From Amphibalanus amphitrite (taxonomy: Eukaryota; Arthropoda; Thecostraca; Balanomorpha; Balanidae), in assembly GCF_019059575.1 (NCBI RefSeq), contig NW_024881619.1, positions 988,358 to 1,052,357 of the forward strand: a stretch of DNA of 64,000 bases, given 5' to 3'. The position numbers and the translations under genes were made by a program. This document shows, one piece after another, positions 17,809 through 64,000 of this stretch. Every line of letters begins with the position of its first letter. Position 1 is the first letter of the stretch. The notes beneath the pieces were generated by a model, which was given only the letters and a program-made list of their open reading frames with translations, did not search any database and had not been told where the DNA came from.

Positions 17809-18390
17809 GACCATGCTTCCGCTGGGTGGTCGACATTTGCCTCCTGAAGAAGTTGAGCAACATGAAGACCACCAGATGAGGTGTCTGCAGTTCATGTGGA
17901 ACTCTGCAGACTACAAGTGTTATGAACCTCATGACAACACTTCAGATTTGCAGTTGTACCAAAGTGTGATTCAAACCACCTGTGGCATCTCACTCAATGT
18001 GTGAACAGTGTGATCATTGTGCAGTGTTCAGCTGCAACTAAGACATTTATTAGTGACTTGTTTTGCAATTAGCCACCAAAAGCATTTTTGGGCTGGCTGC
18101 TGTAATTTGTTGTGCACTGCGCAATAGTGGTAGTGTTTTGTCACTTGTCAAGTTGTCAGTTGTGCATGTTGCATGTTTCTCTTCCCTCGGCCCTCATTAT
18201 CAGTTAAGTGGTGAATTGGCATCACTCAGTCTCCCCAGATCTCCATTGACTGTCTGTCAACCACCTAACTTGAGATGGTATTTGCTAATAGTGTCAGAAA
18301 AGAAGTGATTGTAGACATTTTTAGGAATATGAGCTCCGTTTCATGCGTGTTGCGGTGGTCATTTTGTCACTTGTCCCATAGTGTAATAAA
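17809..18390 (+). CDS. Candidate 3' terminal exon of an unknown gene
   Basis: A good splice acceptor (TTACCTTTCTTTTCTGCAG, ending 17808) is followed by a 65-codon frame that ends with TGA at 18002-18004. An AATAAA lies at 18385-18390. The frame contains HLPPEEVEQHEDHQMR and a Cys-x-aromatic-rich middle. I do not recognise the family. The acceptor, short terminal coding part, 3' UTR and poly(A) signal are what a last exon looks like, but a chance combination cannot be excluded. Confidence 0.3.
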
Positions 18391-19324
18391 TGGAAACTGT
18401 TGTTCCCTTTTCAAGGTACTCGCGGATGCAGAAAGCGTTGGGCCTAATTATTAAACGCACCCTTCTATCAGCGACGCACGAAATCGACAAATATCATCCT
18501 TTTTAGAGCAGGAGGAAACGAAAACTTGTGAACATAGCTGTACCTACAACAGTGCATAAGGAATTGGAATTCTGGGAGTTTTTGAAATTCGGAGAAACTC
18601 CAGTTGTCGACAGGTATGCCCCCTTGTACGTCAAAGACCGCCTAAAAAACAAACGTCTACAAATGAAGGCAGTATTCGTATGTTCGTTGTAATTGCAGCA
18701 GCCTAGCAACATGCATTGCGGTCCGATGGCGAATTACACTCGTGCTAAAAAAAAAAAAAAAACTATGCCGGTAACTGCCAACGTACCTACTTAGGTCGTA
18801 GGTGAGGAGAGGAAGGGTTATGTCAAATGTCAACATCAAAGAAATGGCTTCATCTGAGCTGTGCCTATTGTACATAATTCAACCAATCTATGCATTTCGT
18901 TTCTTGCTAGCTACTCATGCTTTCACTCCTGCTTCAGAGTAATCATCCCATATTGTACGTCTTAAGATATTGATTTCTATGGCAGTTCGCAATTGCTAGC
19001 CACGTCTCACCTCAGTTTGGTGGCCCCGCATCGGCCCACTCGGCCGCTCTAAAATTGACTTACGGAGGAGGATGGTGGCTTTTATTTTAGCTTCTCCGCT
19101 GACTGCGGGGAGCGCCGTCGCCGAGGTAGGAGCAATAATTAGCTTAAGTTTGGGACTAATTTACACGCTTAATTAACATTTTAATGTTATTTTAATTAAT
19201 TCATGTTAATCTTTGACGCATTCTCTTTCTATTGATACCATCCACCGGCCTGAGAAGTACTGCCTTGCTGCGTAAGGGCCGATAAAAGATCACGCTTTTA
19301 GGGGTATCTCTTCAACATGGGGCA
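18391..19324. other. Non-coding stretch inside the 4.16-kb insertion
   Basis: There is an A-run of about 16 at 18,748 and AT-rich sequence around 19,140-19,210. No gene is recognised. Confidence 0.4.
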
Positions 19325-19385
19325 GGAGCAATAAATAGAGCACTCTAATTTTAGCTTATTTCCCTGGTATGTCACCAACTGATAT
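19325..19385 (-). repeat. Inverted-repeat partner 2 (of 16,376-16,436)
   Basis: Reverse-complement match to 16,376-16,436. It lies 108 bp from the right end of the 4.16-kb insertion. Confidence 0.85.
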
Positions 19386-19493
19386 GTGACGATTGTTCTG
19401 ACGTGTTGCAGAAACGGATCTATAGACAAGATGAATACAAGGTCCTGTGTTTGACTACACCTGTTTTGGGACGGAGACATGCCGGAACTAACA

Positions 19494-61376: not shown

Positions 61377-61844
61377 TGCCAGCGCTATACGAAAATGATA
61401 CTACATCGTAAAAGCCTGTGTGGGCTGAACAAGACTATCGACGTCCACCTCGGATGCGCCGGTAATATGTATATAATACTGAACGAAGCCGGTGTATATA
61501 AATTTTCAAGACCCAGGTCCTTACTTGCTTTTTGAACGAGGTCGAAAGCCGAGTAAAAAAAAATCAGTAAGGACTGAGGTCTTGAAAATTTATCACTGGC
61601 CGAGTTTGGTAGGTACACTCATGAGAAAAATTTTCACTCCAAATAAAATAGTAAAGTTCTTCCATTTCTAACCCACAGTTTAGAGTACAATTAAGGTCGT
61701 ACAAATACGCTCATAAAAAGAGTTATGGATGTAGGGTAATCGTACTCTTAGATGAAAATGTGTCAATAGACACGTTTTCATGACATGAAATTCTCTTCAT
61801 GACATTTCATGCCTGTTGCTCCATGACATCGAATAAATAAATAA

Positions 61845-62809
61845 ATAAATAAATAAATAAATAAATAACACAGAAAGTTCAACTTGATGGCAAAACTAAT
61901 GGCCTAAAGTAAAACTATACGCCGACCTCAACAAATAACACAGAAAGTCAAACTTGATGGCCAAGTTAATGCCAATGGCATGACAAGCCTCCGCCGTTCC
62001 ACAGTCGTTCCATTTGCCGGGAACGTCGCACGCTTCACCCAAACGTATGGCTTCACTGCTCATAGTGAAAACAATGTTGCTCGTTGTTGCTGCTGTTCGA
62101 ATGCTGCTTCCTGCTCATTTCGCCTCACTGTAGGCGGGGACGATTCTGGCGTACAGCTTCAGGGCCCTTGCTGGCACCCTTACTCCATCGTCCCCTTCAG
62201 CACAAGCCTCTGAAGGTAGATCCCAAGCGCCTTATCTGCCTTGCCGTATGTATAATGCATTGAATAGCGAGTGGCACAAAACCCAAGCGAGCACGGCATC
62301 GGCCAATTCTGCGATGGTGACCACGGTTACGCCTTCACTCTTCAGCGACTACTTGATAGGTACTTATCGTCGTGGATGAGCAGCTGCAGTGACATCGTTT
62401 CGTCAGCTGACTCTTGAGGTATTTTGCGTCCGCCGAGGCACACGGCGGTCTGGCCAATCACATCGCCTGGCAACAGATCAAGAAAATGGCAAACCGTTAG
62501 GTTGAGATACATGAGTAGATGCGCTAGACTGTTTAAAAAATGATGAGGGAGGCAAAAGGGAAAAGGGGAAAGAAGTGGGAGGTGATGAGAGAGAGAGAGA
62601 GAGGGAGAAGAGAGAAGAGAGAGAGAGAGAGAGAGAGAGAGGAGAGAGGAGAGAGAGAGAGACTCCACTTGAGCGTGCTCGAAAAGCTGTGGGAGATGTG
62701 GGCCCCACACAGGCGGGTCGCGAGTAGGTCCGGGTTAGTGGCGGCTTTCCGACAGGTCTAGAGGTAGGTCAGGGTCGTCGTCTTAAGAAGACTTTACGCC
62801 ACGGCGTGT
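61845..62809 (-). pseudogene. Family U copy 1a (mirror of 19,494-20,460)
   Basis: Same remnant as the left arm, with the GA microsatellite at 62,588-62,663 shorter and differently interrupted. Confidence 0.55.
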
Positions 62810-64000
62810 GTTAGTTCCGGCATGTCTCCGTCCCAAAACAGGTGTAGTCAAACACAGGACCTTGTATTCATCTTGTCTATAGATCCGTTTCTGCAACACG
62901 TCAGAACAATCGTCACATATCAGTTGGTGACATACCAGGGAAATAAGCTAAAATTAGAGTGCTCTATTTATTGCTCCTGCCCCATGTTGAAGAGATACCC
63001 CTAAAAGCGTGATCTTTTATCGGCCCTTACGCAGCAAGGCAGTACTTCTCAGGCCGGTGGATGGTATCAATAGAAAGAGAATGCGTCAAAGATTAACATG
63101 AATTAATTAAAATAACATTAAAATGTTAATTAAGCGTGTAAATTAGTCCCAAACTTAAGCTAATTATTGCTCCTACCTCGGCGACGGCGCTCCCCGCAGT
63201 CGCGGAGAAGCTAAAATAAAAGCCACCATCCTCCTCCGTAAGTCAATTTTAGAGCGGCCGAGTGGGCCGATGCGGGGCCACCAAACTGAGGTGAGACGTG
63301 GCTAGCAATTGCGAACTGCCATAGAAATCAATATCTTAAGACGTACAATATGGGATGATTACTCTGAAGCAGGAGTGAAAGCATGAGTAGCTAGCAAGAA
63401 ACGAAATGCATAGATTGGTTGAATTATGTACAATAGGCACAGCTCAGATGAAGCCATTTCTTTGATGTTGACATTTGACATAACCCTTCCTCTCCTCACC
63501 TACGACCTAAGTAGGTACGTTGGCAGTTACCGGCATAGTTTTTTTTTTTTTTTTAGCACGAGTGTAATTCGCCATCGGACCGCAATGCATGTTGCTAGGC
63601 TGCTGCAATTACAACGAACATACGAATACTGCCTTCATTTGTAGACGTTTGTTTTTTAGGCGGTCTTTGACGTACAAGGGGGCATACCTGTCGACAACTG
63701 GAGTTTCTCCGAATTTCAAAAACTCCCAGAATTCCAATTCCTTATGCACTGTTGTAGGTACAGCTATGTTCACAAGTTTTCGTTTCCTCCTGCTCTAAAA
63801 AGGATGATATTTGTCGATTTCGTGCGTCGCTGATAGAAGGGTGCGTTTAATAATTAGGCCCAACGCTTTCTGCATCCGCGAGTACCTTGAAAAGGGAACA
63901 ACAGTTTCCATTTATTACACTATGGGACAAGTGACAAAATGACCACCGCAACACGCATGAAACGGAGCTCATATTCCTAAAATGTCTACAATCACTTCTT
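62809..64000. mobile_element. Part of the 4.16-kb insertion (mirror of 18,301-19,493)
   Basis: The right-hand 1.2 kb of the insertion, including the inverted-repeat partner at 62,917-62,977. The window ends inside it. Confidence 0.7.

Follow-up and report, generated by a model that had tools for sequence, protein, structure and literature searches.

Inverted repeat at the end of contig C122

The DNA analysed here, hereafter the window, is a stretch of 64,000 nucleotides of Amphibalanus amphitrite that corresponds to bases 988,358–1,052,357 of contig C122, in an assembly of 807.55 Mb in 2,644 contigs. Self-BLAST of the window shows that 18,300–64,000, the terminal 45.7 kb of C122, is one inverted repeat. 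The features of this region are the following.

17,300–19,386, unstranded: part of a high-copy repeat found in at least 38 other places at 94–97%; it contains 18,300, the position that mirrors the contig end
18,300–41,184, plus strand: left arm, the better supported copy (self-BLAST, folded alignment, polarity against C433)
25,159–30,090, plus strand: left-arm counterpart of the error patch (56 of 90 differences in 25,100–30,100)
40,687–41,057, minus strand: LINE 3' UTR and poly-A tail, body missing (compared with L003–L007)
41,058–41,309, unstranded: (TA)n tract with the fold point (Tandem Repeats Finder)
41,185–64,000, minus strand: right arm, the left arm in reverse complement, with numerous small deletions of its own, reaching the contig end (same evidence as for the left arm)
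41,310–41,690, plus strand: the same LINE 3' end, second inverted copy, in the right arm (LINE copy comparison)
52,263–57,152, minus strand: right-arm error patch (42 right-missing indels, 7 insertions, 7 substitutions; all 52 polarised events are right-arm changes)
64,000: end of contig C122, the last window base being contig base 1,052,357

A single symmetric minus-strand alignment pairs 18,300–64,000 with 64,000–18,300 over 45,810 columns at 99.485% identity (E-value 0.0; 18 mismatches and 175 gap openings, each event being counted from both sides), and the size of this match is far beyond chance. The folded arm alignment places the fold point at about 41,184/41,185, within the TA tract, which gives a left arm of about 22.9 kb and a right arm of about 22.8 kb. 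The original prediction had the sequence read forward from 18,301 and then backward to the window end, with at least 22.7 kb per arm, and the alignment bears this out; the centre that it proposed, 41,059, does lie in the TA tract, but is the tract's left edge and not the fold. It had also held the arms to be far more alike than the older direct duplications, in agreement with the 99.49% obtained here as against the roughly 92–96% that self-BLAST gives for the direct duplications within each arm. Since the window ends where the contig ends, it is the end of the contig, and not a natural boundary, that fixes how far the arms extend: C122 has no sequence beyond the right arm, so that the second arm is never left.

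An uninterrupted frame of 1,149 amino acids at 9,875–13,321, on the minus strand, encodes the reverse transcriptase and RNase H of a LINE other than the one at the centre; it has an 85% copy about 18.5 kb upstream, in L009, and a protein search with its reverse transcriptase found relatives of up to 77% in ENA-source contigs and of about 38% in the spider Araneus. At 37,706–39,267, with its mirror at 43,108–44,668, a MULE transposase domain is followed by another frame, the motif of which I take to be zinc-finger-like, a label that has no Pfam match behind it.

A LINE 3' end and its TA microsatellite at the centre

A LINE 3' UTR with its poly-A makes up the 0.39 kb beside the TA tract in both arms. 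Five outside copies (L003–L007), taken from 88 matches with both strands counted, were compared over 194 to about 1,500 bases of body. All five have the order body, TA tract, 3' UTR, poly-A, and the body of L003 carries the reverse transcriptase domain RVT_1. Together with window positions 40,687–41,309, they form a young LINE family with copies about 98–99% alike, whose internal TA microsatellite is short in four copies and about 200–250 bases long in two.

The window resembles these LINE 3' ends in having a 3' UTR and poly-A and in its degree of identity. It differs from them in that the 3' end stands alone, twice, head to head around the TA microsatellite: the tract, which separates body from 3' UTR in the five other copies, does not do so here, and the last 250 bases of the LINE body had no match on either side of the tract or anywhere in the window. 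To judge from the order conserved in the family, the TA tract is an internal microsatellite of the LINE, and the inverted second 3' end occupies the place where the body is expected. The LINE may have been truncated in its TA tract by chance, but another flank, and not its own 3' end again, should then follow. Target-site duplications, as marks of the true continuation, were sought in three LINE copies and none was clear; the first 600 bases of contig C2643, which begins near a LINE 3' end, contain no TA tract.

A 100-base TA pattern occurs at 23,152 overlapping positions of the genome, that is, at about 0.3% of bases even if each position is counted as a separate tract. A fold point inside such a tract is therefore an unlikely chance, which argues that the tract took part. 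Not every TA tract gives rise to a fold-back, since seven of seven other long tracts (six being the first places listed on C1 and C2, one being C1065) had no inverted match between their 500-base flanks. These tracts bear on the possibility that the assembler made the palindrome by itself, from no fold-back molecule, its path having entered the self-complementary TA tract on one strand and exited on the other. Such a path would account for a fold point inside the tract, and tracts of this kind can end contigs, since a TA-rich tract opens one of the 20 contigs whose starts were sampled; yet all seven other long tracts were crossed normally, and the path had no need to stop at the mirror position 18,300, though that point does fall in the high-copy repeat. 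I regard this possibility as unlikely, though still deserving a place.

A different arrangement was seen at C2:721100–724050 (L039), where two long TA tracts stand about 1.5 kb apart and the sequence between them has reverse-complementary ends, as if a terminal-inverted-repeat element sat in a TA tract.

Spectrum and polarity of the differences between the arms

Folded once, the arms differ by 97 events, namely 9 substitutions, 72 indels missing in the right arm and 16 missing in the left. Seven of these, which fall within the TA tract or on its border, were excluded from the spectrum and polarity counts. The remaining 90 consist of 71 indels missing on the right, 12 missing on the left and 7 substitutions, and the longest difference is at most 3 bases. 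Arm differences had been predicted to be mainly small indels, as is the case outside the tract (83 indel events to 7 substitutions).

More than half of the events (56 of 90: 42 right-missing, 7 left-missing and all 7 substitutions) fall in a patch at 25,100–30,100 in left-arm coordinates, where 33 of the 56 consist in the loss, on the right, of one base from a run of 1–4. The changes in the right-arm patch recur in particular contexts, AG to AT in five of the seven substitutions and an extra T before G in four of the seven insertions; in my reading, these contexts resemble those of systematic base-calling error. Outside the patch, the 34 events comprise 29 right-missing and 5 left-missing indels and no substitution, and 16 of them lie in single-base runs of at least 5. 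In the right arm, only 10 differences fall in the final 6.8 kb. Among six left-arm open reading frames, three are the same size in the right arm and three are shortened there (25,404–26,018 from 204 to at most 177 amino acids, 27,411–28,121 from 236 to 194, and 33,523–34,212 from 229 to 174).

The older divergence in the same DNA has another spectrum. The direct repeats were compared as 10 pairs with some overlap in the left part of the window, where 8,829 bases hold 341 mismatches and 61 gap openings, and as nine pairs in the right arm, where 7,189 bases hold 272 and 65; the left arm aligned with C433 gives 56 and 12 (one alignment of 2,931 columns). The 7:83 ratio of the arms thus contrasts in the extreme with this substitution-dominated divergence (Fisher p of about 1.5e-45 against 341:61 and about 6e-23 against 56:12, the events not being fully independent). 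An old palindrome whose arms have been homogenised by long-term gene conversion would have a high arm identity, as found; conversion should however leave some substitutions and arm-specific insertions, whereas no substitution occurs among the 34 events outside the patch and no difference exceeds 3 bases. It was rejected on the spectrum and on the polarity described below, and I give it next to no credence.

The arm in which each difference arose was assessed with related sequences from the same assembly. Some of these lie on C433 (L030, L031, L033 and L034, covering 1–33,900), a rearranged cluster of segments of window 13,700–37,700 on the minus strand at about 87–99%; matches to window segments reach 61 kb on this contig, and the cluster may be an allele or a paralog. 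Polarity was counted in five ways, differing in the outgroup sequences and the sites included. With C433:1–33900 as outgroup, the right arm had changed at 66 of the 90 events and the left arm at one, with 4 ties and 19 giving no call. Within the patch, comparison with L030 on C433 gave 52 right-arm changes and no left-arm change, 4 of the 56 events having no hit. Exact words in the window favoured the left arm at 12 events and the right at 2 (5 both, 71 none; n = 90). All outgroup loci together with window 1–18,290, copies on C122 itself being excluded, favoured the left at 58 and the right at 2 (1 tie, 29 none; n = 90). Finally, for the 34 outside-patch events, the copies found in the left part of the window favoured the left arm at 7, the right at 2 and neither at 25.

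A few events go the other way. The right arm is favoured at 33,304, in a T run, by the exact-word, left-part and C433 counts. At 35,285, it is favoured by the left-part copies, whereas the exact-word and C433 counts favour the left; at 40,684, it is favoured in the exact-word count only, and 23,014 is weakly right-favouring in the all-loci count. At 40,714, five LINE paralogs match the right arm and not the left, and the right arm's edge of the TA tract resembles C1065. Position 33,304, position 40,714 and this edge indicate that the left arm is not the better copy everywhere, particularly towards the centre, where both arms seem to carry errors. Differences between the arms of a real palindrome should look like mutations and occur on both arms; what was found is a 7:83 spectrum and a 66:1 polarity. 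A fold-back artefact should yield a second arm that is a reverse copy up to sequencing error, that bears the error-type indels and that ends the contig, and the right arm has each of these properties, save that 33,304 and 40,714 are exceptions as to where the indels lie. A test of this kind, in which the differences between two arms are polarised by paralogs taken from the assembly itself, requires no reads and could be used to screen other contig-end palindromes.

Origin of the right arm

The right arm is very probably a sequencing or assembly artefact, of one kind or the other, and not a feature of the chromosome. Its terminal position, the fold within the TA tract, the spectrum and polarity of the differences, and the missing LINE body speak for this; one-sided errors of raw type, a contig end and a self-complementary junction are what is expected from a fold-back molecule or from a strand-switching assembly path. 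The inclination of the original prediction towards a fold-back read or an amplification chimera is supported by the same terminal position, the indel-heavy one-sided differences and the interrupted LINE. One or more fold-back molecules are probably the source of the arm, and such a molecule is more likely than an assembler that turned around in the tract.

Fold-back products are documented in long-read data. Foldbacks are reported to make up about 0.55–0.6% of ONT genomic reads and to be able to tangle assembly graphs, while PacBio HiFi data are said in the same account to have virtually none (PMC12870357). According to another report, inverted-repeat chimeras amount to 0.18–7.33% after ligation-based nanopore preparation (PMC13141652). 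Fold-back long reads are like the window in that a forward copy is followed at once by its reverse complement; they differ from it in that the window palindrome is known as a finished, partly clean contig end and not as a read. In K562 foldbacks, the unmapped stretch between the two halves is described as showing an enrichment of simple repeats, with poly-A and AC the most frequent, whereas the simple repeat here is TA, not named in that description (PMC12870357). Whole-genome amplification also produces palindromes, which were reported in 47.8 and 43.6% of the reads of two amplified Arabidopsis PacBio sets as against 0.5% in a control, together with inverted duplications in a gorilla assembly built from amplified DNA (PMC6218980). 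As in the window, inverted copies were thus described there in assembled sequences as well as in reads (PMC6218980), but the source DNA of the window may or may not have been amplified.

The following pathway would account for the data. The chromosome would run through the left arm into the reverse-inserted LINE, first through the 3' UTR and then into the internal TA microsatellite, which is expanded in this copy; beyond it, the true continuation would differ from the right arm, the LINE body being the simplest candidate. A fold-back molecule, or a small number of them, may have been taken as an extension of the contig, adding a reverse copy of 22.8 kb that stops where the molecule stopped; such a molecule may have arisen by self-priming or strand switching at the TA tract, which is self-complementary, or may be two strands read as one. 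Polishing would then have cleaned the left arm, and the patch in the right arm may have kept its raw-type errors because the reads fit the left arm better. Some observations are less easily fitted to an artefact. The small number of differences in the terminal 6.8 kb of the right arm means that a raw single read would need polishing. The virtual absence of foldbacks from PacBio HiFi data, as reported in PMC12870357, means that the platform matters. Moreover, if a real palindrome exceeded the read length, the contig would likewise break off within the second arm.

The main biological rival is a real and very recent inverted duplication, in which a break in the TA microsatellite of the LINE folded back and was copied, giving arms of at least 22.7 kb that are too young for true differences or have been homogenised by gene conversion; the original prediction had likewise left room for a recent gene-converted palindrome. 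Folding of TA tracts also occurs in living cells, and real palindromic duplications, such as sex-chromosome palindromes and fold-back inversions, have near-identical inverted arms around a small hairpin-capable spacer, as is the case here. From this general picture, the window palindrome differs in being contig-terminal, in lacking a second flank and in having its errors on one side. Self-complementary tracts are a kind of sequence described as able to start cellular fold-backs (PMC3907307, PMC7467729), and, nearly all arm differences being readable as sequencing error, the true identity of the arms could be complete. The 66:1 polarity towards the contig-end arm goes against a recent duplication, since similar quality is expected in both arms if they are read from both sides; poor quality in one arm can nevertheless come from real inverted duplicates, in which nanopore reads are reported to lose accuracy (PMC7229812).

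A real palindrome should also have a right-hand flank, which C122 does not contain and which was looked for among other contigs. The contig end falls within the right-arm copy of the high-copy repeat, which spans at least 17,300–19,386. Among the matches listed for the outer 2 kb of the arm (the best 40 of 692), only the right arm continues as a long match into 19,387–20,300, the TC tract of which has short matches in C1343, C1061 and C6, and there is no other near-100% match. Known paralogs escape this set, as illustrated by C433:25016–25861, a 95.4% paralog of 19,640–20,481 that is absent from the best 40 of 692. A search with 40,000–40,690 matched the two arms only, among the best 40 of 623 candidates. 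That no right-hand flank appears among the matches listed is thus weak evidence against a real palindrome, and a contig with the other flank could sit outside the best 40 of 692 or of 623. Taking these points together, I consider a recent duplication very unlikely, and it is equally improbable that a break in such an expanded TA microsatellite has given a living genome a new palindrome with arms of 22.7 kb or more, and that this LINE family scatters hairpin-forming tracts from which fold-back duplications start. A real palindrome would be a clear-cut example of a fold-back duplication that began in a LINE microsatellite. If the right arm is an artefact, as preferred here, C122 carries a false duplication of about 22.8 kb that doubles MULE-type and other transposon pieces and invents a palindrome.

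Twenty contig starts, one of them that of C122 itself, were sampled over their first 10 kb, and no large fold-back with its centre in that interval was found; the longest inverted alignment was 1.75 kb, in satellite. This survey accordingly lends no support to the artefact being common in the assembly. Near-duplicate, indel-rich contig ends do occur elsewhere, however: C123:1–10000 (L015) and C126:1–10000 (L018) share the same 10-kb start at 99.82%, with one mismatch and seven gap openings, a spectrum that does not differ from that of the arms (Fisher p 0.51, on 8 events only), and this pair is possibly a false duplication, alleles or a real copy. Rfam gave nothing above gathering scores in the window or in these two starts. 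The 1.75-kb alignment comes from a tandem satellite that switches orientation at C2500:2795–4540 (L027), forming a palindrome of 92% identity. Three of the 20 starts (C1501, L025; C1500, L024; C120, L012) open with about 95–105 bases of simple repeat (TA, GA and TC, respectively), and the start of C503 has a few TC units.
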